A stretch of DNA of 32,405 nt, taken from a candidate division WWE3 bacterium. GTDB lineage: Bacteria > Patescibacteriota > WWE3 > UBA101185 > UBA10185. Below are positions 2,220 to 14,113 of the stretch, piece after piece (position 1 is the first letter of the stretch; each line of letters starts with the position of its first letter). The stretch covers positions 219,971 through 252,375 of the forward strand of contig JAAZNV010000006.1 of assembly GCA_012798115.1 (NCBI GenBank), read 5' to 3'. Under the pieces are notes generated by a model. It was not told the DNA's origin, did no database searches, and was given only the letters and a program-made list of their open reading frames with translations. A program made the translations under genes and the position numbers.

Positions 2220-3545
2220 ATGCCTGGGATTATTGTTGAAGGTGGAACTCCTTTAATGGGTTCTGTTCTTGTTTCAGGATCTAAGAATTCTGCTTTGAAG
2301 CTTATTCCAGCTGCAATGTTTTCAAATGAAGACATCATTTTGAGCAATGTTCCAAGGATAAAGACGATATTTGATGATTTAGAGGTGATAACAAGTATTG
2401 GTGGAAAGGCTGACTGGGTTGGACCTAACACATTGATTCTTAATGGTTCTACCATAAACACTTGTGAAGTACCCCTAGAGATTGGAAGCAAGTATAGGAC
2501 CACAATGCTTCTTGCTGGACCTTTGCTTTTTAGGTTTGGTAAGGCTTTTATCCCAAAATATAGGTCTGCTACCTTTGTTCATGGGTCTGTAAATAGATTT
2601 TTAGACACATGGAAAGCTTTAGGGTTTAAGATTGAAGAAGATGAGGAGTATTACAAGATATTTAGTGAAAACCCAAACAGTGCTAGCATTGTGTTTAGAA
2701 CCTCTAGCCATATGGCTACTGATAATGCGATCTTATCTTCTGTTTTTATTCAAGGAGAAACTGTAATAACTAATGCTTCTGAGGAATGTGAAATAGATGA
2801 TCTTGTTGAGATGTTAAATCAGATGGGAGCAAGTGTAGAAAGAATTGAACCAAGGAAGATAAGAATAAACGGAGTAAGTATATTTAAAGGGACTAAGTTT
2901 GAGGTTTGTTCTGATAAATCTGAAATTGCAACTTTAGCGTCTGCAGCCATAGTTACTAAAGGTAATATTTCTATAAAAGGTGTAAGAAAAGATGCCATGG
3001 TTCAGTTTGTTAATTTCTTGGATAAGATTGGGATGAAGTTTGAATTTTCTGGAGATGAGCTTAGGGTTTGGAGACATGATGAAGATATTAAACCATTGAA
3101 ACTTGAGATATCTGCTACTCCTGGGTTTGTTCCTGACTGGCAGTCTCTTGCTACATTAATACTTACTCAAGCATCTGGGGAAAGTACGATTCATGACACG
3201 GTTTATACTGATAGATTTGGTTATGTAGTTGACTTAAATAGGATGGGAGCAAAGATAGAAGTGTTGAAACCAAGTGAGGAAGGAATTATTCCTGTCATTA
3301 GTGATGACTCTTATGATTATGATAAGTTGGGGGAACCTAGCACATTGGCTAAAATTAAAGGACCCACTAAACTAAAGAGTGAAAGATTGAATATAGATAA
3401 TTTTAAATATGGCGCCGTACTTGTTTTAGCTGCTTTGTGTGCAGAAGGAAAAAGCGAGATAATAGGGGTAGAAAATATTGAAAATTTTTTTGAAGGTTTT
3501 GTAAATAAACTTAAATCACTAGGAGCAAAAATATGGGAACAGTAG
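2220..3545 (+). CDS. murA: MurA-like enolpyruvyl transferase with altered active site
   Basis: The length (441 residues) and fold are those of MurA, which transfers enolpyruvate from PEP to UDP-GlcNAc. The start (EGGTPLMGSVLVSGSKN with K22/N23), the TPGFVPDWQ segment with the Asp equivalent to E. coli D305, TDRFGYV, and the LVLAALCAEG segment all align. The catalytic loop does not. An ungapped alignment from R93 (E. coli R91) places Ala117 at the position of Cys115 and Gly122 at the position of Arg120, and no Cys or Asp occurs anywhere in residues 108-126. Arg397 is replaced by Lys396. Known fosfomycin-resistant MurA enzymes carry Asp in place of Cys; this one has neither. It may use different chemistry, bind a different substrate, or be a paralogue of a true MurA elsewhere. 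It starts 1 nt after secG stops and overlaps mraY by 13 nt. Confidence 0.82.
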   Translation: MPGIIVEGGTPLMGSVLVSGSKNSALKLIPAAMFSNEDIILSNVPRIKTIFDDLEVITSIGGKADWVGPNTLILNGSTINTCEVPLEIGSKYRTTMLLAGPLLFRFGKAFIPKYRSATFVHGSVNRFLDTWKALGFKIEEDEEYYKIFSENPNSASIVFRTSSHMATDNAILSSVFIQGETVITNASEECEIDDLVEMLNQMGASVERIEPRKIRINGVSIFKGTKFEVCSDKSEIATLASAAIVTKGNISIKGVRKDAMVQFVNFLDKIGMKFEFSGDELRVWRHDEDIKPLKLEISATPGFVPDWQSLATLILTQASGESTIHDTVYTDRFGYVVDLNRMGAKIEVLKPSEEGIIPVISDDSYDYDKLGEPSTLAKIKGPTKLKSERLNIDNFKYGAVLVLAALCAEGKSEIIGVENIENFFEGFVNKLKSLGAKIWEQ

Positions 3546-4633
3546 AGCTATTAATAGATTTTATGTTGCTATTTTTGGCGTGTTTAGTATCGCTTGCTTT
3601 GTACCCTTTATGGATTAATTTTGTTTATCGCTTCCAAATGGGAGAAAGTGTAAGACAAGACGGACCAATAACTCATAGAAAGAAAGAAGGAACACCAACT
3701 ATGGGGGGTCTTGTCTTTATTTTTTCTGTAGCTGTAGTCAGCTTACTCTTTAACAGATCAAGAACTCAAACATTGTTTCCTCTTTTTGTAGCTAGCATGG
3801 CAGGGCTTCTGGGTATGTTGGAAGACTTTACTAAAGTTTATAGAAGATCAGGTCTTCCAGGGTTTTTTGAGTATCATTTTGGTAAGATTTTTAAGAATAA
3901 AAATGGGGTGAGAACAAGGCTGGGAATTTTTTCAAAAATTTGGGACTCCTTTAAATCTATAGCTGGTTCTGTTGGAAGCTCCGACGATAGTGGTATTTTA
4001 ACTTATCAGAAATTTATTGTTCAAGGTTTAATTGCAGGTTTTGTATCATACTGGACGTATGCAAAGTTAGGGTGGGATTATATTTGGCTACCTCTTGTTG
4101 GTGATGTGCATATTGGTTTGTTTTACCCCATATTTATATTCTTCCTTTTCATAGGTATATTAAATGCAGTGGCTTTTACTGATGGCCTTGACGGCTTGGC
4201 AGGCGGCTTGTCTCTTATTTCATTGATTTCTTTTTGGGTTTTATCCAGAATAATTGGTTATAATGCTTTAGCTGGATTTTGTGCTACTTTTGTTGGAGCC
4301 TTAATTCCTTTTTTATACTTTAATATATTCCCTGCAAGAATATTTATGGGAAATGTAGGATCTTACGTACTTGGAGCAACTATGGCAATTCTTGCTGTTG
4401 TGATGCACAGGGAGTTTGCATTTCTTTTTATGGGTATTGTTTTCTTTATTGATGGTATTTCCAGTCCTTTACAACAACTTGTTTATAAGTATACAAGAAA
4501 AAGATTATTTAGGATGGCTCCTCTACATCATCACTTTGAACTTTTAGGATGGCATGAGAGTAAGATAACGCTTAGATTTATACTCTTTGGGGTATTCTTT
4601 GCATTTGTTGGTATATTTGTTGCTCTTCTTTAA
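3533..4633 (+). CDS. mraY: MraY-like phospho-sugar transferase with substituted catalytic aspartates
   Basis: This is a polytopic membrane protein of 366 residues in the MraY family, which makes lipid I from UDP-MurNAc-pentapeptide and undecaprenyl phosphate. Family motifs present are HRKKEGTPTMGG (48-59), TDGLDGLA (216-223) and MAPLHHHFELLGW (328-340), the last typical of MraY rather than WecA. Key residues differ. The essential DD pair is Glu97-Asp98, the NAVNL motif is NAVAF (Ala214), and the MGD motif is MGN (Asn274). In E. coli numbering these correspond to D115, the Asn of NAVNL, and D267. The cytoplasmic region after ED (about residues 103-160) is also longer than usual. The start follows a TAGGAG site inside murA. 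Either it uses modified catalysis or it has a different role; it is not visibly truncated. Confidence 0.82.
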   Translation: MGTVELLIDFMLLFLACLVSLALYPLWINFVYRFQMGESVRQDGPITHRKKEGTPTMGGLVFIFSVAVVSLLFNRSRTQTLFPLFVASMAGLLGMLEDFTKVYRRSGLPGFFEYHFGKIFKNKNGVRTRLGIFSKIWDSFKSIAGSVGSSDDSGILTYQKFIVQGLIAGFVSYWTYAKLGWDYIWLPLVGDVHIGLFYPIFIFFLFIGILNAVAFTDGLDGLAGGLSLISLISFWVLSRIIGYNALAGFCATFVGALIPFLYFNIFPARIFMGNVGSYVLGATMAILAVVMHREFAFLFMGIVFFIDGISSPLQQLVYKYTRKRLFRMAPLHHHFELLGWHESKITLRFILFGVFFAFVGIFVALL

Positions 4634-4663
4634 GAACTAAGTTTAAGAATTAAGACCTAGAAG

Positions 4664-5830
4664 ATGAAAAGAAGTTTTATTCAACTAAAAAAGCCTAAAG
4701 GAAAAGATAACTCCTTTATTTTTACAATACTTGCCTTTTTAGGATTTGGGCTTTTTATGATCGCTGACTCTACGGTTATTACCTCAAATACTTTGTATGG
4801 AGAACCTTATAGGTTTGTTTTGCTCCAATTAGGTTGGATCATATTAGGTCTTGTGTGTTTTTTTGTTTTTTATAATTTTGATTACAAAAAACTTTCTCGC
4901 ACTTCATACTTTCTTTTTCTTTTTAATGTTATAGCTTTAATTATTTTAGCGATAGTTGGTTTGTTTCCTTGTTCTATTAATCTTCCTTTTTCTCCATGTG
5001 TAAATGGAGCAAATAGATGGTTATATTTAAATCCTCCTCCTCTTCCTGCAATACCATTTCTTGGAGTAATAGGTTTTCAACCTGGAGAGTTAGCTAAACT
5101 TACAATTATTCTTTATTTATCTGTTCAACTTAGTAAAAATATAAAAGAAGGAGGAGAGCTTTTTTGGGTTTATATGGTTACAGCAAGTCTTTTAGCTGGC
5201 CTTATACTTCTTGAACCAAATATGTCTACTGCTGTTATGGTTTTTGCACTTGGTACAATAGTATATTTTGTGTCAGGTGCTCCAATCAAACCAGTAATCA
5301 TAACTGTACCTATCATTATTGCCCTTTCTGTTATGGTGATTTTAGTGTCCCCTTATAGGAGATCAAGATTAATGGCTATGTTTTCTGGAAGTGATGACCA
5401 AACGTCTAGTTATCATGTGAAACAAGCACTCATGGCCTTAGGATCTGGTGGTGTAATGGGAGTGGGCTTTGGACAGTCAAAACAAAAATATCAGTATCTT
5501 CCAGAAGTTGCTTCAGATTCTATATTTGCAATAATTGGGGAAGAATTTGGTTTTGTTGGAACGATTCTTGTAACCATTGCATACCTTTATCTTGTCTATA
5601 AAGGATTTGAAATTGCTAAAAATGCTCCGGATCTTTTAGGGAAGTTAATTGCATCAGGAATTAGTTCTTGGTTAGGAATTCAGTTTTTTATAAACGTAGC
5701 AGCTATGACCAAAATAATTCCATTAACGGGAGTTCCTATTCCTCTTATATCTTATGGTGGTTCTTCTATGATCTTTAGTTTGATGGGACTTGGCATTTTA
5801 GCTAATATAAGTAAAGAGTCTAGTCAATAG
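4664..5830 (+). CDS. ftsW: FtsW, septal peptidoglycan glycosyltransferase (SEDS)
   Basis: A 388-residue SEDS-family protein with about ten membrane spans. FtsW works with a class B PBP to polymerise septal peptidoglycan from lipid II. Conserved elements are NGANRWL (114-120), QPGELAK (139-145), the YRRSRL segment, GVGFGQSKQKYQYLPE, the catalytic Asp285 (SDSIFAIIGEE) and TGVPIPLISYGGSS near the end. Unlike the preceding MurA and MraY homologues, nothing essential looks lost. EPNMSTA stands where many relatives have PDxGT, a tolerated variation. It lies 30 nt after mraY with no clear Shine-Dalgarno. No Mur ligase gene intervenes, although murD usually sits at this spot. Confidence 0.92.
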   Translation: MKRSFIQLKKPKGKDNSFIFTILAFLGFGLFMIADSTVITSNTLYGEPYRFVLLQLGWIILGLVCFFVFYNFDYKKLSRTSYFLFLFNVIALIILAIVGLFPCSINLPFSPCVNGANRWLYLNPPPLPAIPFLGVIGFQPGELAKLTIILYLSVQLSKNIKEGGELFWVYMVTASLLAGLILLEPNMSTAVMVFALGTIVYFVSGAPIKPVIITVPIIIALSVMVILVSPYRRSRLMAMFSGSDDQTSSYHVKQALMALGSGGVMGVGFGQSKQKYQYLPEVASDSIFAIIGEEFGFVGTILVTIAYLYLVYKGFEIAKNAPDLLGKLIASGISSWLGIQFFINVAAMTKIIPLTGVPIPLISYGGSSMIFSLMGLGILANISKESSQ

Positions 5831-5840
5831 TTAAGTTAAT

Positions 5841-5847
5841 AAGGAGG
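5841..5847 (+). promoter_or_regulatory. Strong Shine-Dalgarno of murG
   Basis: AAGGAGG lies 5 nt before the murG ATG. It is the best ribosome binding site in the window and shows that the anti-Shine-Dalgarno system is used inside operons, in contrast to the leaderless first genes. Confidence 0.8.
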
Positions 5848-5852
5848 TTTAA

Positions 5853-6968
5853 ATGAAAGTAGTGGTGATAGGCGGGCATCATAGTTCTGCTCTCCCTGTG
5901 ATTAAAAAGTTAAAAGAAAAAGATCCTAACGTAGAAATATTTTGGATAGGCCATAAGTATTCTATGAAAGGAGACACTAATCCGACTCTTGAGTATAGAG
6001 AAATAATTAGTTTGAGAATTCCATTTTTTGATTTAAAAGCTGGGAAACTGTATAAAACTTATGACATTGGAAGGATTTTGAAGATCCCTTTTGGTGTTAT
6101 TCAAGCTTTTTATTTCTTGTTAAAGATAAAGCCAGATGTAATATTGTCTTTTGGAGGGTATATTGCAGCTCCTGTTGTGTTATCAGGATTTATTCTTGGA
6201 ATACCTTCTCTTACTCATGAGCAAACTGTGGTTTCTGGGTATGCTAATAAGTTTATATCCTTGCTTGTTAAAAAAGTGATGATATCCTGGAGAGATTCTG
6301 CAAAGTATTTCCCTAGAAAAAAAGTAGTTTATACAGGTATTCCTCTTAGAAGTAGTATTTTTGAGATTAAGTCAAACTCTTTTAGTGTAAGTAACAACCT
6401 TCCTACTATTTATGTGTCTGCTGGGAAAACGGGTTCTCATATAATAAATAATCTAATAAATAACTCTTTAGGGGATCTTCTTGAGTTTTGTAATATCATT
6501 CATCAGACGGGAGATAACTCTGTAAACAATGACTACAATCAGCTAAAACTTAAATATGAAAGCATAAGAAGCAATGTAAAAGGCAAGTATTTCTTGAGAA
6601 AGTTTGTATTTGAAGATGAAATTGGGGAAGCTTTTAATAAATCAAGTCTTGTTGTATCAAGATCAGGGGCACATACGGTATCTGAGATATTAGCACTAAA
6701 AAAACCTTGTATATTAATACCTATCCCTTGGGTTTCTCATAACGAACAGAATAAAAATGCAGAAATGGTAAAGAATTATGGTTTGGCAGTTATATTAAAC
6801 CAAGGTACTTTAGATGCAAAAACTTTAATAAATACTATTCAAAATTCTTTAAGTGATATTAATAGCTTTAGGTTAAATGATAATAAGGTCTTGGATTTTC
6901 TGAGAGAAGATCCTGCAGAAAAAATTGCTAATGAAGTCATTAAATACTCCAAAAACAAAAGGAAATAG
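5853..6968 (+). CDS. murG: MurG-like N-acetylglucosaminyltransferase (lipid II step)
   Basis: A GT28-family GT-B glycosyltransferase of 371 residues. MurG adds GlcNAc to lipid I on the inner face of the membrane. Recognisable segments are FGGYIAAPVVLSG (100-112), HEQTVVSGYANK (122-133), HQTG (217-220), SRSGAHTVSEIL (269-280), and the donor-side run KKPCILIPIPWVSHNEQNKNAE. The N-terminal GGTGGH loop reads GGHHSSAL (7-14), and the usual GGSQGA loop reads SAGKTGSH (189-196), so both glycine-rich loops are rewritten while the C-terminal donor site is intact. This is probably still a GT28 enzyme, but acceptor recognition may differ, in line with its odd MurA and MraY neighbours. It starts 22 nt after ftsW behind a strong ribosome binding site. 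Confidence 0.85.
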   Translation: MKVVVIGGHHSSALPVIKKLKEKDPNVEIFWIGHKYSMKGDTNPTLEYREIISLRIPFFDLKAGKLYKTYDIGRILKIPFGVIQAFYFLLKIKPDVILSFGGYIAAPVVLSGFILGIPSLTHEQTVVSGYANKFISLLVKKVMISWRDSAKYFPRKKVVYTGIPLRSSIFEIKSNSFSVSNNLPTIYVSAGKTGSHIINNLINNSLGDLLEFCNIIHQTGDNSVNNDYNQLKLKYESIRSNVKGKYFLRKFVFEDEIGEAFNKSSLVVSRSGAHTVSEILALKKPCILIPIPWVSHNEQNKNAEMVKNYGLAVILNQGTLDAKTLINTIQNSLSDINSFRLNDNKVLDFLREDPAEKIANEVIKYSKNKRK

Positions 6969-7800
6969 ATCTGTTAAAAGATATCCTTTTCAGGTTTCTC
7001 CTAATGCTCAAGTAAGTGGAAGTGATTTGGTTTTAAAAAGAATAAACAAAAGAAGGAAAACCTTTAAGAACCCCAAGGCTGTACTTAGAAGCCACCATGG
7101 CATGGCTAAAAAAATCTTTGTGTCTTGTTTGCTTGTTGGAGTTTTTGTATTTATTATGTCTAAGTTTAATATCTTAGAATATTTTAAAGTTAATTCTATT
7201 AAAGTGTTAGGGTCATCCAAGTTTGTAAATGAAAAAGACATCAAAACCTTGGTTGAAAAAAATTCCTTAGGGCGTTCAATATTTGCTATAAACACTGAAA
7301 ATTTAAAAGATACATTAAAAAAGAACTTCTTAGGAGCTAAAAACATTGAAGTAGAAAAAGATTATCCAAACACACTTAAAGTTGTTGTTGAAGAAAGAAC
7401 TCCCATTGCAATTCTTTATAACGATAAAGGTATTTTTTACCTTATTGATTCAGATGGTTATGTTCTTGGAATAGTTGATAAAAATTACTTGGAGCTTCCA
7501 AAGATTAGATATGAAGATGATATATCTGTAGGGAACTTTTTAGATAAAGATATCATTCCTGTTAGTGTTGATATACTAAAGTTTGCAGAAAAAGAAGAAC
7601 TAAATGTTAGTAGTATGAGCTTCTACCCAAAATACACAAAAATATACGTAGGGAGTACTGAAGTATATATTGGATACGATAAAAGTAGAGAAAAATCCAT
7701 CGAAACTGTTGGAGCCTTAATAAAAAAGCTTAGTGTTGAAGGAAAAGTAGCGAAAAAGATTGATTTACGTTACGACAAAGTAATAGTATTATATGATTAG
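6931..7800 (+). CDS. ftsQ: FtsQ/DivIB division protein with POTRA domain
   Basis: A bitopic protein of 289 residues. It has a basic cytoplasmic tail of about 60 residues, one membrane span near 62-82 (KKIFVSCLLVGVFVFIMS), then a POTRA domain (FKVNSIKVLGSSKFVNEKDI onward) and the FtsQ beta domain (YPNTLKVVVEERTPIAILYN, then FYLIDSDGYVLG). FtsQ links early and late divisome proteins. The ATG at 6931 is preferred over an in-frame TTG at 6925. The gene therefore begins inside the last 38 nt of murG, implying coupled translation. The position between murG and ftsA is the classical one. Confidence 0.88.
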   Translation: MKSLNTPKTKGNRSVKRYPFQVSPNAQVSGSDLVLKRINKRRKTFKNPKAVLRSHHGMAKKIFVSCLLVGVFVFIMSKFNILEYFKVNSIKVLGSSKFVNEKDIKTLVEKNSLGRSIFAINTENLKDTLKKNFLGAKNIEVEKDYPNTLKVVVEERTPIAILYNDKGIFYLIDSDGYVLGIVDKNYLELPKIRYEDDISVGNFLDKDIIPVSVDILKFAEKEELNVSSMSFYPKYTKIYVGSTEVYIGYDKSREKSIETVGALIKKLSVEGKVAKKIDLRYDKVIVLYD

Positions 7801-7811
7801 ATTTTAAGCTT

Positions 7812-9068
7812 ATGCCCAAGGAAAAAATTATTACTGGAATTGACATAGGATCTACTAAGATAAGCACTACAGTTGCTTCTGTGTCTGAGAGTAAAATATC
7901 TGTAATTGGAGTTTCAGGAAATGTTCCTTCAAAAGGGATTAGTAGAGGAAATGTTGTAGATATAGATAGCGCTGTAGAAGCCATATCTCAAAGCATAGAA
8001 AAAGCTGAAAGAATGGCTGGGGTTTCTATTTCCAATGCTTTTGTGACTATAAATGGAAGTCATATGGAAACCTTGAATTCCCATGGCGTTGTTGCTGTAT
8101 CCCCAAATGAAACATCAGAAATAACTAGAAGTGATGTTGCAAGAGTCATAGAAGCAGCTCAAGCAATTTCCCTTCCTTCAACAAGAGAAATTATTCATGT
8201 TATTCCGAGAGATTTTGTAGTTGATTCTCAAGAAGGTATAAAAGATCCAGTTGGTATGTCTGGTGTAAGGCTTGAGGTTGAAACTAATGTCATTCATGGT
8301 TCAGCTACAGCAATGAGAAGCATTACAAAGTGTGTTAATCAAGTTGGAGTTGACGTTAATGAACTTGTTTATAGTGCCTTAGCTTCCTCAGAAGCTGTGC
8401 TTAACGATACTGAAAAGGAACTTGGAGTTTTGCTTGTTGATATAGGTGGAGGGACAACTTCTGTAATAGCATTTCTAGACGGCAGCCCTATTCATTCTGT
8501 TGTTTTGCCAATTGGAGGAAGGCTCGTTACTCAAGATTTAACAATAGGTTTAAGATCTAGGTTTGAAGATGCAGAAAAGATAAAGATTAGATTAAGTAAT
8601 GAAGCAATGCTTTCCAAGTCTGGAGTAGGAGATGTTGCAGAAGAAGATTTTGATGTATCTGAGTTTAACTTAGATATTGAAAGAATCCCTAGAAGTATGC
8701 TTTATAAAATAATGAATGCTAGGCTTGAGGAGATATTTAGGCTTGTAGCGCTTGAGGTAACAAAAGCTGGTCTAAGTGGAAAGCTTCCTGCAGGTATAGT
8801 TATCACAGGGGGAGCTGCTTTAACTGCTGGAGTGGAAAGAAGTGCTAAAGTTAATTTAAAAATGCCTGTTAGGATAGGAACACCAAAAGGTGTTACTGGT
8901 CTTATTGATGAGATAAAAGGACCTGATGCTTCCGCTGGGGTAGGGTCTATTCTTTACGGTGTCAAACTTTATAGAGGTAGTAATCTATTGTCATTAGATG
9001 ATAAAAACGGTACTATTAAAAAAAGCATGTCTAAGATATTTGAAAAGTTCAAGTCTTTTCTACCTTAG
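7812..9068 (+). CDS. ftsA: FtsA, actin-like membrane tether for FtsZ
   Basis: A 418-residue actin-fold ATPase. It has the phosphate-1 loop GIDIGSTKIS (9-18), the SHS2-type 1C domain following it, the phosphate-2 loop VDIGGGTTSV, and the adenosine motif ITGGAALTAGV. It ends with a short amphipathic helix (SMSKIFEKFKSFLP), which is the membrane-targeting sequence of FtsA. It starts 11 nt after ftsQ. Nothing is missing, so the core divisome scaffold appears functional. Confidence 0.95.
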   Translation: MPKEKIITGIDIGSTKISTTVASVSESKISVIGVSGNVPSKGISRGNVVDIDSAVEAISQSIEKAERMAGVSISNAFVTINGSHMETLNSHGVVAVSPNETSEITRSDVARVIEAAQAISLPSTREIIHVIPRDFVVDSQEGIKDPVGMSGVRLEVETNVIHGSATAMRSITKCVNQVGVDVNELVYSALASSEAVLNDTEKELGVLLVDIGGGTTSVIAFLDGSPIHSVVLPIGGRLVTQDLTIGLRSRFEDAEKIKIRLSNEAMLSKSGVGDVAEEDFDVSEFNLDIERIPRSMLYKIMNARLEEIFRLVALEVTKAGLSGKLPAGIVITGGAALTAGVERSAKVNLKMPVRIGTPKGVTGLIDEIKGPDASAGVGSILYGVKLYRGSNLLSLDDKNGTIKKSMSKIFEKFKSFLP

Positions 9069-9120: not shown

Positions 9121-10257
9121 ATGCAAGTAAAACCTGAAGTAGAAAACTTTGCAAAAATAAAGGTTTTAGGTATAGGTGGTGCTGGAGGAAATGTCTTAAA
9201 TTCTATGATTGAATCCGGCCAGATTACTGGAGTTGAATTTATTGCTATAAATACTGATGCTCAAGATTTATCTAAAAACAAAGCAGTAGTAAAAATTCCA
9301 ATTGGGCAAGAAATTACACATGGTCTTGGATCTGGTGCCAATCCAGATATTGGAAGACATGCAGCTGAAGAATCAAGTGAGGAAATAAAAAAACACTTAG
9401 AAGGTGCAGATATGATATTTATTACTGCAGGAATGGGTGGAGGCACTGGCACAGGAGCTTCCCCAGTTATTGCAAGATTAGCAAAGGATCTTGGGGCGCT
9501 AACAATAGGTGTAGTAACAAAACCTTTTCCATTTGAAGGAGCAATGAGAATGAGAAATGCTGAAAATGGCATTACTGAACTTAGAGAAGAAGTTGATGCA
9601 CTAATTACTATTCCAAATCAAAGATTACTGGAAGTTGCAGATGAAAACATGTCAATTTTGGAAGCATTTAAGCTTTCTGATAGTGTTTTAAATCAAGGGG
9701 TTCAAGGAATATCAGATTTGATTGTAATGCCAGGTCTTATAAATGTTGACTTTGCAGATGTTAAAACGATTATGAAAGATGCTGGAACAGCTCTTATGGG
9801 CATTGGAATTGGGACTGGAGAAAATAGAGCAGAAGTTGCAGCAAAAGCTGCTATTTCTTCTCCTCTTCTTGAACAATCTGTTGAGGATGCTAAGGGAATA
9901 CTATTTAACGTTATTGGTGGTCATGACTTAACTATGAAAGAAGTAGATAAGGCTGCAAATATTATTAGAGATATTGCAAATGATGAAGCAAATATTATCT
10001 TCGGAACAACTATAGATGAGAGACTTGCAGGACAAGTTAAGATTACTGTGATTGCAACAGGCTTTGATATTAAACATGATGATTTAGGGTATGGTTTTGC
10101 AGAACCTAGATTTATTCCGAGAAAAGATGCTACAGCTCCTAATTCCATACAAAAATCTATTGATTTACCAACGAAAGATACATTTAAGCCAGAAGACTTT
10201 GACACTAGTGACCCAGATAGTAAGTATGATATTCCAGCCTTCTTAAGGGGAAAATAA
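9121..10257 (+). CDS. ftsZ: FtsZ, tubulin-like division GTPase
   Basis: A full-length FtsZ of 378 residues that forms the Z ring. GIGGAGGN (17-24) and the tubulin signature GGGTGTG (106-112) bind GTP. The T7 synergy loop NVDFAD (208-213) completes the active site of the neighbouring subunit. A disordered linker of roughly 45 residues leads to the conserved C-terminal peptide [10 protein letters not shown], which docks on FtsA. A 52-nt gap separates it from ftsA and a hairpin terminator follows immediately, so ftsZ ends the cluster. Confidence 0.97.
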
Positions 10258-10969: not shown

Positions 10970-13513
10970 ATGAGTTCTTACTTATACTTTAATGATGGTA
11001 TTAATTTAGAAAAAAATAAAAGTATTGAGTTTGCAGAAAACTCAAGGAAAATCCTAGAAAAAAGGTTCTTGAAGAGAGATGACAAAGGAGAAATCGCAGA
11101 AACCCCAGAAGGTATGTTTGACAGACTCTCTGAGGTTATTGCTGAACCAGATAAACTCTACAGGAGTGTAGAATTCTCTAAAATTGAATTTTATAATTTA
11201 CTATCTTCAAGGAAATTTTTTCCTAATGCTCCTACATTCACTGGGGCAGGAACAGCTCTGGGACAGCTAGCAGCTTGCTTTGTTCTTCCTGTGTCAGATG
11301 ATTTAGGAAGGTATTCAGATAGCATTTTTTCTACTTTAAGAGATGCAGCTTTGATCCAACAGTCTGGTGGTGGAAATGGCTTTTCTTTTTCAAGATTAAG
11401 AGCAAAAGGAACAAGAATATCAACAAGTAAGGGTGTTTCATCTGGTCCTATTGGATTTATGAAGGTTTATGATGCTGCTTTTGGGGAGATTGCACAAGGT
11501 GGTGTGAGAAGAGGTGCTAACATGGGGGTTTTAAGAGTGGATCATCCTGATGTTAGGGATTTTATTAAGTGTAAGACACAAGAAGGAACCATTTCTAACT
11601 TTAATATATCTGTTGCAGCTACCGATGAGTTTATGAGAGCTGTAGAAAATGATATGACTTACAACATTGTTGATCCTAAGACAAAACAAGTCGTAGAGAC
11701 ACCAAGGGCAAGAGAAATATTTGATCTCATGGTTGAGCAGGCATATAAGAATGGTGAACCTGGAATACTTTTTATTGATGCTGCAAACAGGCAAAATCCT
11801 GTACCTCATATGTATACATTAGAAGCAACTAATCCTTGTGGTGAACAGTGGCTTGGTCCTTATGAAAGCTGTTGTTTGGGTTCCATTAATTTAGCTCTTC
11901 ATGTAAGTAAAGAAGGAAAAGTAGATTGGGAAGAACTTCAAAAAACAACAATACTAGGAACTCGTTTACTGGATAATATAGTTACTGCAAATAAGTATAT
12001 TCCTCAAGTTCCTCAGCTTAAAGAAGCTGCTTTGGGTTGCAGAAGAATTGGTCTTGGAATAATGGGTTTAGCAGATTTGATGTATAGTCTTGGGATAAGA
12101 TATGGAAGCGAGGAGGCTCAAGAATTTTCTGCTCAAGTGATGGAGTTTATTAAGTTTCACTCTATGAAAGCCTCCATTGAGCTTGCTAGGGAAAGAGGCC
12201 CATTCTTGAAGATAAGAGGAAGTATATTTGATCCTGAAAACATTACATGGAAAGTTCCATCTCCTTTAAGACCGTACTCAAGGAGTTGGAACAGGCCTAT
12301 CTTGCATTGGCAAGAAATACAAGATGGGATAAGAATGTTTGGTATAAGAAATGCTGCAATAAATACAATTGCTCCAACAGGAACAGTTTCTCTTGTAGCT
12401 GGGGTGGAAGGTTATGGTTGTGAACCAGTGTTTGCTCTTGCTTACTATATGAATGTTTATCAAGCAGCTGGTCAAGATAAACAAATGACCTTAACATATG
12501 TAAGTCCTTCTTTTCAGAAGGCTTTAGACTCGTTAAGTATGGATGAAGGTACGAAGAAGAGGGTAATTGAGGAGGTTTTGCACGAGGGCTCGTGTCAAGG
12601 CATAGAAGAACTGCCAGAACACATTAAAAATACTTTTGTTGTAGCATCTGATGTAACTCCTGAGGAACATGTTTTAATGCAAGCTTCACTTCAAGCGTTT
12701 ATAGATAATTCTATTTCAAAGACATGTAACTTTCCTCAAGATGCAACAAGAGAAGATGTTGCTAAAGTTTATATGATGGGGTGGAAATTAGGTTGTAAAG
12801 GTTTAACAGTTTATGTAACTGGAAGCAGACAAGAAGTTGCTTTAGAGACAAAAAGCACAAAAGAATCAAAATCACAGGTAAGTTCCTCTACTCAACAGGA
12901 GTCTTCGATGGAGAATAAACTAGCAAAAGAACATGAATCTCTGTTAGATAGTAAAGTGTTAGATGAAGATGTAAATGATAGTTTGTTGAAAAGAGCATAT
13001 AGATTGGAAGGAGCTACTTATAAGGTTAAAACTCCTCAAGGAAAAGCTTTTATTACAATAAATAAGACACCTGAAGGAAAACCATTTGAAGTATTTATCA
13101 ATGTCGGAAAAGCAGGAACAGATGTGTCAGCTTTATCAGAAGGCTTAGGAAGACTTGTCTCAGGACTGTTAAGATATCCGGACTCAAGGGATGATACGGT
13201 AAAGGAGATCATTACTCAACTAAGCGGCATAGGAGGTTCAAGATCTGTTGGGTTTGGAAAGAATAAGGTGTACTCAATTCCGGATGCAGTTGCTAAGGTT
13301 TTAGCTGAGGAGTTTGGTTACAATATTCCTCATACAAATGGAAATGGCTCTGCATCGGATAAAATGTCTTCTCTTGAAGAAGCTGATATGTCTAAATATA
13401 TAAAGGAATCTGGATTATCTAGCGTTGATGTTTGTCCCGAATGTGGAAATTACTCGTTTGTAAAAGAAGAAGGATGTGCTAAGTGCTATGAGTGTGGTTA
13501 CTCAGTTTGTTAG
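10970..13513 (+). CDS. nrdJ: Adenosylcobalamin-dependent (class II) ribonucleotide reductase
   Basis: An 847-residue class II RNR, which reduces ribonucleotides to deoxyribonucleotides with a B12-derived radical. The barrel is recognisable from QQSGGGNGFSFSRLR and QGGVRRGANMG. The active-site finger ATNPCGEQ gives the thiyl Cys290 and Glu292. The redox cysteines appear to be Cys103 (LAACFVLPV) and Cys301/302 (SCCLGSINLA). A low-complexity Ser/Lys/Glu linker (about 630-670) joins a TSCPD domain (LEGATYKVKTPQGKAF, then ALSEGLGRLVSGLL). The C-terminus is a four-cysteine zinc ribbon (CPECG, then CAKCYECGYSVC) thought to shuttle electrons to the active site. The next gene makes its cofactor. The ATG choice is set by the N-terminal alignment; no Shine-Dalgarno is seen. 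Confidence 0.95.
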   Translation: MSSYLYFNDGINLEKNKSIEFAENSRKILEKRFLKRDDKGEIAETPEGMFDRLSEVIAEPDKLYRSVEFSKIEFYNLLSSRKFFPNAPTFTGAGTALGQLAACFVLPVSDDLGRYSDSIFSTLRDAALIQQSGGGNGFSFSRLRAKGTRISTSKGVSSGPIGFMKVYDAAFGEIAQGGVRRGANMGVLRVDHPDVRDFIKCKTQEGTISNFNISVAATDEFMRAVENDMTYNIVDPKTKQVVETPRAREIFDLMVEQAYKNGEPGILFIDAANRQNPVPHMYTLEATNPCGEQWLGPYESCCLGSINLALHVSKEGKVDWEELQKTTILGTRLLDNIVTANKYIPQVPQLKEAALGCRRIGLGIMGLADLMYSLGIRYGSEEAQEFSAQVMEFIKFHSMKASIELARERGPFLKIRGSIFDPENITWKVPSPLRPYSRSWNRPILHWQEIQDGIRMFGIRNAAINTIAPTGTVSLVAGVEGYGCEPVFALAYYMNVYQAAGQDKQMTLTYVSPSFQKALDSLSMDEGTKKRVIEEVLHEGSCQGIEELPEHIKNTFVVASDVTPEEHVLMQASLQAFIDNSISKTCNFPQDATREDVAKVYMMGWKLGCKGLTVYVTGSRQEVALETKSTKESKSQVSSSTQQESSMENKLAKEHESLLDSKVLDEDVNDSLLKRAYRLEGATYKVKTPQGKAFITINKTPEGKPFEVFINVGKAGTDVSALSEGLGRLVSGLLRYPDSRDDTVKEIITQLSGIGGSRSVGFGKNKVYSIPDAVAKVLAEEFGYNIPHTNGNGSASDKMSSLEEADMSKYIKESGLSSVDVCPECGNYSFVKEEGCAKCYECGYSVC

Positions 13514-13541
13514 TTGACCTGCAAACAGGCTGTAGTATATT
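13514..13541 (+). promoter_or_regulatory. Possible promoter of the adenosyltransferase gene
   Basis: TTGACC (13514-13519), a 16-nt spacer and TATATT (13536-13541) directly follow the nrdJ stop. A second TATAAT lies at 13542-13547. The leader would be about 17 nt. Confidence 0.45.
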
Positions 13542-13564
13542 TATAATGTTTCTGCCCTTAAGGT

Positions 13565-14113
13565 ATGTTTAAAGTGTATACAAAACAGGGCGACAATGGT
13601 TTTACCCTCTTGCCAAAGATAAGTAAAAAAATATCTAAATCAGATTTAGTATTTGAAGTATTGGGTACATTTGATGAACTTGGAGTTTGCTTAGGATTTC
13701 TTCATACAGCTAGATTAAATGATGTTAAGAAAGTTTCGATTGAAGTTCAAAAAGATCTTTTAAGCTTAGGTTCTTTGATTATTTCCCAAGGAAAGATATC
13801 TGATGCAACAAGAAAAAACTGGGAGAAAAGAGTAAAGGAATTAGAAGAAGTTATTGACTACTTTCAAGCAAAAACAGACTCTATACAAAGCTTTATTCTT
13901 CCTGGAGGATGTAGAGAAAGTGCTTTTTTACACTTAAGTAGAGTTACATGTAGGAGATTGGAAAGACTTGTTGTTAGATATATTAAAAAGAAAAAGGATA
14001 TGGTTTTTGTTGTTAAGTACCTAAATAGATTATCAGATCTTCTTTTTGTTATGGCTAGGTATGTGAACAAAAAACTTGGATTTAAGGATTTAATTTGGGA
14101 GAATAAAGCATAG
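13565..14113 (+). CDS. PduO-type ATP:cob(I)alamin adenosyltransferase
   Basis: A 182-residue four-helix-bundle enzyme that transfers the adenosyl group of ATP to cob(I)alamin. The N-terminus FKVYTKQGDNGFT matches the PduO nucleotide-binding signature (YTxxGDxG), followed by LGTFDELGVCLGF. The C-terminal half carries FILPGGCRESAFLHLSRVTCRRLER and VKYLNRLSDLLFVMARYVN, the most conserved stretches of the family. It sits 51 nt behind nrdJ, the enzyme that needs adenosylcobalamin, so the pair forms a small cofactor-plus-user unit. No B12 synthesis genes are in the window; the cell probably salvages corrinoids. Confidence 0.93.
   Translation: MFKVYTKQGDNGFTLLPKISKKISKSDLVFEVLGTFDELGVCLGFLHTARLNDVKKVSIEVQKDLLSLGSLIISQGKISDATRKNWEKRVKELEEVIDYFQAKTDSIQSFILPGGCRESAFLHLSRVTCRRLERLVVRYIKKKKDMVFVVKYLNRLSDLLFVMARYVNKKLGFKDLIWENKA

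Follow-up and report, generated by a model that had tools for sequence, protein, structure and literature searches.

The division and cell wall (dcw) gene cluster of a candidate division WWE3 (Katanobacteria) bacterium encodes a MurA homologue without the catalytic residues of that enzyme, and it does so in a family of genomes that has largely lost the genes for making the muramyl precursor of peptidoglycan. The unusual part is this combination: the MurA active site is lost, and so, throughout the family, is the branch that makes the precursor. The cluster lies in a stretch of 32,405 nucleotides (the window; positions 219,971 to 252,375 of the forward strand of contig JAAZNV010000006.1, GenBank assembly GCA_012798115.1). 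On balance, and with moderate confidence, we favour the reading that these bacteria assemble peptidoglycan from an imported, peptide-bearing muramyl precursor and that the MurA of the cluster persists as a pseudoenzyme.

Papers on the candidate phyla radiation call peptidoglycan genes frequent, retained or complete (PMC13293708, PMC7143001, PMC7137472, PMC8080830). Our literature search returned no description of a truncated WWE3 pathway; an earlier mention in two early WWE3 papers (mBio 2013, Nat Commun 2015) is possible.

Gene content of the pathway

The genome holding the window (G000) is a metagenome-assembled genome (MAG) of 760,854 bases in 14 contigs, 95.3% complete. It was studied with the genomes of its own WWE3 family (27 in all, termed f1) and a comparison set of 30 relatives outside f1. 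Among the f1 members are the closed genome RAAC2_WWE3_1 (G023; CP006914.1, 878,109 bases) and two single-contig genomes (G012 and G013). All absences given here depend on the sensitivity of hidden Markov model and phmmer searches, and the MAGs among the genomes are incomplete.

Queries with Escherichia coli proteins found no match to MurB, MurC, MurD, MurE, MurF or Ddl in the window genome, which has one MurA, a single-copy MurG, one MraY with one WecA-like protein besides, and just one weak, non-canonical Mur-ligase domain. A complete de novo peptidoglycan pathway, with MurB, MurC–F and Ddl, is not encoded. The initial annotation had reported murB–murF and ddl missing from the cluster, which is true of the cluster and of the whole genome; its suggestion that murA, mraY and murG are a coordinated group of paralogues, with the canonical set lying in another part of the genome, is refuted, no second canonical copy of murA or mraY being found and the precursor genes being absent genome-wide.

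The same holds across the family. MurC, MurD and MurE are absent from all 27 f1 genomes and canonical Ddl from most. MurB occurs in 3 of the 27 as against 19 of the 30 relatives outside f1 (Fisher p 9e-5), and at least three Mur-ligase domains in none as against 14 (Fisher p 2e-5). RAAC2_WWE3_1 has no match to MurB, MurC, MurF or Ddl queries from either E. coli or Patescibacteria, the latter queries coming from genomes with several Mur ligases; MurE and MurD queries match its MurT alone. That murB–murF and ddl merely sit in unassembled parts of the MAGs is very improbable. Although the window assembly is in pieces and somewhat incomplete, with three small contigs (∼7 kb in total) that read as N, almost the same genes are absent from the closed RAAC2_WWE3_1 and from the single-contig G013 and G012 (the last with a MurF-like ligase), and 19 of the 21 f1 genomes that are at least 90% complete likewise lack MurB. 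Moreover the dcw cluster in the window is contiguous, and the usual places of murC, murD, murB and ddl within it are empty. Partial loss of the pathway reaches beyond WWE3: in G038 and G032, which belong to the class but to different families, neither MurB nor Ddl is present and each genome has a single Mur ligase. The dcw cluster of G038 includes a MurF-like ligase and a canonical MurA.

The later steps are present. In the window genome E. coli queries matched RsmH, FtsI, a class A penicillin-binding protein (PBP), MurJ, two DacA proteins, UppP, UppS, FtsW, FtsA and FtsZ; the SxxK, SxN and KTG motifs of the PBPs and carboxypeptidases are intact and their domains were confirmed. PBP transpeptidases occur in all 27 f1 genomes and MurJ in 25. 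D,D-transpeptidases and carboxypeptidases need stems of the D-Ala-D-Ala type, and the retained enzymes require UDP-N-acetylmuramic acid (UDP-MurNAc)-pentapeptide and UDP-N-acetylglucosamine (UDP-GlcNAc), nothing earlier. WWE3 has in common with the E. coli pathway the order mraY-ftsW-murG-ftsQ-ftsA-ftsZ, MurJ, the PBPs, DacA, UppP and UppS; unlike E. coli it lacks murB–murF, ddl and the genes of amino-sugar and D-amino-acid supply, and it has murA in the cluster, without the catalytic Cys.

The lone Mur-ligase domain of most f1 relatives was considered as a possible MurC–F enzyme and proved to be MurT, present in 20 of the 27 genomes (NCBIfam, 1.3e-45). A conserved GatD adjoins it in 19; the pair shows the MurT_C domain and the CGxYQ and HGP motifs of GatD. 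Adjacent murT and gatD (in 19–20 of the 27) likewise characterize the Gram-positive system, in which MurT-GatD amidates the D-Glu of lipid I and lipid II stems but not of UDP-MurNAc-pentapeptide (PMC3266927). Unlike that system, the f1 pair occurs without MurD, the enzyme that adds D-Glu, and is missing from the window's own genus. Since MurT-GatD acts on lipid-linked precursors only, a D-Glu-bearing lipid-linked stem must exist in most f1 genomes. In G013 and RAAC2_WWE3_1 murT-gatD is followed by a gene for an O-antigen-ligase-like membrane protein (L136:5046–8205 and L213:2811–5938).

The MurA homologue of the cluster

The MurA homologue (window positions 2220–3545, + strand; 441 amino acids) belongs to MurA by sequence family and by fold. 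It scores 347.6 bits against NF006873 (over the cut-off of 297) and 345.4 bits against TIGR01072 (under the cut-off of 392.7). Its AlphaFold model (mean predicted local distance difference test, pLDDT, 86; predicted template-modelling score 0.82) is weak only at the catalytic loop and one short insert, and the best PDB match of the model is MurA (template-modelling score 0.88–0.93).

For an intact catalytic loop we looked for Cys115 or Asp in the motif PGG[C/D]xIGxRP, plus Arg120 and Arg397, and the window protein has none of these. Relative to E. coli, Cys115 is replaced by Ala (Ala117 in the window protein), Arg120 by Gly, His125 by Phe and Arg397 by Asn, with Lys22, Asn23, Arg91, Asp305 and Arg331 retained. 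The degenerate loop (residues ∼113–122; 2556–2585, + strand) stands out in alignments, in entropy and in model confidence, residues 116–122 being the lowest-confidence part of the model.

Cys115 is present in only 1 of 24 WWE3 dcw-type MurAs, that of G016, and Arg397 also in 1 of 24. The Cys is replaced in f1 by Ala, Ser, Thr, Glu, Arg, Gly, Pro, Lys or Asn, or is deleted; loop positions 113–120 and Arg397 fall in the 91st–100th entropy percentile of the protein across WWE3, and no new conserved loop motif appears. Elsewhere in the same 24 proteins Asp305 is retained in 88%, Asn23 and Arg91 each in 79%, and Asp369 mostly. Outside f1, the closely examined MurAs of G028, G034, G038 and G050 retain Cys115, Arg120, His125 and Arg397. 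The G016 protein is placed near the family base in the tree with support of only 30–36, and its position does not separate one loss of Cys115 from several.

A check of MurA for purifying selection, already proposed in the initial annotation, gave a nonsynonymous divergence (dN) similar to the values for MraY and FtsW and an omega (dN/dS) of ∼0.1 or less where estimable, synonymous divergence (dS) being near saturation so that only low dN and rough bounds on omega are obtainable. Among MurA, MraY and MurG, MurA alone shows a breakdown of conservation, while purifying selection maintains its UDP-GlcNAc pocket, its fold and its place in the operon. Going by its residues, the most plausible view of this MurA is that of a retained, folded pseudoenzyme that probably no longer transfers enolpyruvate.

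We consider it quite unlikely that the protein is instead an active enzyme that converts a UDP-sugar in some novel reaction, much as NikO uses uridine monophosphate. The purifying selection and the general retention of Lys/Arg22, Asn23, Arg91, Asp305, Arg331 and Asp369 would suit such an enzyme, and by structure match the overall fold is common to the NikO/5-enolpyruvylshikimate-3-phosphate synthase superfamily. NikO is catalytic, however, whereas the WWE3 protein has lost its catalytic loop without a conserved replacement: the phosphoenolpyruvate contacts Arg120 and Arg397 are, like the loop, unconserved, and the most divergent f1 members additionally lack Lys22 and Asn23.

MraY, MurG and the rest of the cluster

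MraY (3533–4633, + strand; 366 amino acids) scores 214.8 bits against TIGR00445 (cut-off 192) and retains the HHH motif (HHHFE). It differs from E. coli in having ED for DD (Glu97-Asp98; 3821–3826, + strand), NAVA for NxVN and FMGN for FMGD (Asn274 at the place of Asp267; 4352–4354, + strand), and so lacks the full set of three catalytic Asp residues of DD and FMGD. Among f1 sequences covering the sites, ED is invariant and FMGN occurs in all but that of G010, which has FMGD. The two also occur together in G027, G028 and G035, which carry MurB, four or five Mur-ligase domains and Ddl, and for this reason they are not evidence of inactivity. The Asp-to-Glu and Asp-to-Asn changes co-occur in MraY of WWE3 and of several relatives with Mur ligases, and the pair is possibly a compensated metal-site swap; the AlphaFold model of MraY (pLDDT 40) is unusable for this site.

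MurG (5853–6968, + strand; 371 amino acids) has MurG as its best family, at 176.8 bits against TIGR01133 (under the equivalog cut-off of 250), with PF04101 and PF03033 over their cut-offs. Compared with E. coli the N-terminal glycine loop GGTGGH is shortened to IGGHH (5868–5882, + strand), HEQN reads HEQT and GGSQGA reads AGKTGS, leaving none of GGTGGH, HEQN and GGSxGA in canonical form; the Glu and Gln-Asn motifs are retained. Nearly every member of the class has GGHH, HEQT and GGKxG, genomes that carry MurB, Mur ligases and Ddl among them; those with the shortened glycine loop include G027–G030, G035, G036 and G043.

Relatives with canonical Mur sets carry the MraY and MurG variants too, so the changes in the three enzymes are not one package, and we rejected their joint alteration as a single adaptation. 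The MraY and MurG changes are inherited variants of the clade, in enzymes that probably work and should be catalytically competent despite their clade-specific motifs, and they are uninformative about the missing precursor genes. Much of what the initial annotation described stands: open reading frame (ORF) coordinates and family matches agree with full-length, tightly packed genes beside normal FtsW, FtsQ, FtsA and FtsZ, and the substitutions it reported in MurA, MraY and MurG are real when the proteins are aligned with those of E. coli and of PDB entries, yet in the latter two they are fixed in the clade. Conservation of the substitutions among relatives, which it had put up for checking, is found for MraY and MurG and fails for MurA, whose loop is among the most variable positions. 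Its idea that three co-altered enzymes make a modified lipid-linked sugar is weakened by the canonical Mur sets that accompany the variants in relatives.

We hold it to be distinctly improbable that this modified precursor is a peptide-free lipid-linked glycan, for which MraY would transfer GlcNAc-1-phosphate and MurG would attach a second sugar. Such a product would account for the different metal-site residues of MraY (ED, FMGN) and for a MurA probably unable to make the muramyl ether. But peptide stems are needed by the D,D-transpeptidases of all 27 f1 genomes, by the MurT-GatD of 20 and by the D,D-carboxypeptidases of the window genome with their intact motifs; the variants of MraY and MurG are shared by relatives that possess MurB, Ddl and several Mur ligases; and the window genome has its separate WecA-like protein.

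The cluster runs murA-mraY-ftsW-murG-ftsQ-ftsA-ftsZ, tightly packed on the + strand, and synteny comparison shows the same operon order across f1 wherever the locus is covered. Besides the genes above it comprises ftsW (4664–5830; PF01098, 294.8 bits), ftsQ (6925–7800; POTRA_1, 2.5e-11), ftsA (7812–9068; TIGR01174, 372.9 bits) and ftsZ (9121–10257; TIGR00065, 420.7 bits). On its 5′ side lie uvrC (215–1579) and then a gene for a holin-like membrane protein with four transmembrane segments (1587–1997, + strand; PF04020, 1.4e-7), which most WWE3 genomes keep at this place, with uvrC before it and murA after it. The UvrC is short at 454 amino acids (f1 copies, complete and partial, have 404–510); Pfam matched its GIY-YIG, UVR and RNase H domains and no helix-hairpin-helix domain. 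Beyond the cluster, at 10970–14113, a corrinoid adenosyltransferase-like ORF comes immediately after a ribonucleotide reductase-like one; judged from the sequence alone, the pair suggests a B12-dependent enzyme.

Supply of the muramyl precursor

Under the import reading the WWE3 pathway would be cut at its front, with no recognisable maker of UDP-MurNAc-pentapeptide. A peptide-bearing muramyl precursor, most simply UDP-MurNAc-pentapeptide itself, would be acquired from another bacterium, host or prey, and would enter the pathway at MraY; since WWE3 lacks MurC–F and Ddl, its peptide would have to arrive ready-made. MraY would then form lipid I and MurG lipid II, MurJ would flip the product, FtsW and the class A PBP would polymerise it, FtsI and the PBP transpeptidases would cross-link it and DacA would trim it, with UppP and UppS serving the lipid carrier. 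In most relatives MurT-GatD would amidate the D-Glu of the lipid-linked stem peptides. The dcw MurA pseudoenzyme may still bind UDP-GlcNAc and could serve the MraY-MurG module as scaffold or sensor. A bolder version is doubtful in our view: that the whole WWE3 division imports ready-made UDP-MurNAc-pentapeptide or an equivalent and finishes it through MraY, MurG, MurJ and the PBPs, the dead MurA sensing precursor or UDP-GlcNAc and coupling supply to division.

A partial likeness is offered by Tannerella forsythia, which has no MurA/MurB route and relies on muramyl compounds of other bacteria, importing muropeptides via AmpG and activating the sugar with AmgK and MurU (PMC7670621). WWE3 differs in also lacking MurC–F and Ddl, and AmpG was not found by phmmer.

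Several points weigh against import. No importer was identified, AmpG and Mpl homologues both being absent from the window genome by phmmer, and we know of no demonstration of UDP-MurNAc-pentapeptide import. E. coli queries likewise gave no GlmS, GlmM, GlmU, MurI or Alr homologue in the window genome, so that UDP-GlcNAc too would have to be obtained elsewhere or made by unrecognised enzymes. The window's own genus being without MurT-GatD, the argument from D-Glu is one from relatives. Seven f1 genomes carry an additional canonical type II MurA, seemingly left over from a more complete pathway, and MurB in three f1 genomes, MurF-like ligases in five and Ddl-like ATP-grasp proteins in several show that the branch is not gone everywhere.

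It is conceivable, if unlikely, that WWE3 has kept de novo synthesis of the stem peptide and of the muramyl sugar, with enzymes that are unrelated or have diverged beyond recognition, such as other ATP-grasp ligases or tRNA-dependent Fem-type transferases. The Ddl-like proteins just mentioned would fit, as would the ability of MurT to stand in for MurE in vitro (PMC3266927) and a MurF-like protein of the window genome (C2:100668–102005, − strand; L002:886–2229). Yet neither the window genome nor RAAC2_WWE3_1 has a Ddl-family match, and with GlmS, GlmU, MurI and Alr also not found, the whole supply side appears lost rather than single enzymes replaced. The MurF-like protein, a MurF-N-like homologue that accounts for the one Mur-ligase domain of the window genome and has an adjoining alpha/beta hydrolase gene, was rejected as a general replacement wall ligase, being present in only 3 of the 27 f1 genomes. 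Its counterparts, in G017 and G026 of other genera, are 71–76% identical to it, closer than their MurAs are, and it looks horizontally spread.

For the import reading, which we continue to favour, the weight lies in the pattern of a whole lineage, closed genome included, that has kept every step from MraY on and almost none before. Precursor uptake from hosts thereby becomes a directly testable question. The dcw MurA also shows that a match to a family model can put the name MurA on a protein whose catalytic residues are missing. These bacteria are predicted to be insensitive to fosfomycin at MurA and may be sensitive to inhibitors of MraY and of lipid II and to beta-lactams, and the Asp-to-Glu and Asp-to-Asn pair of their MraY is a natural variant of the metal site of a drug target.

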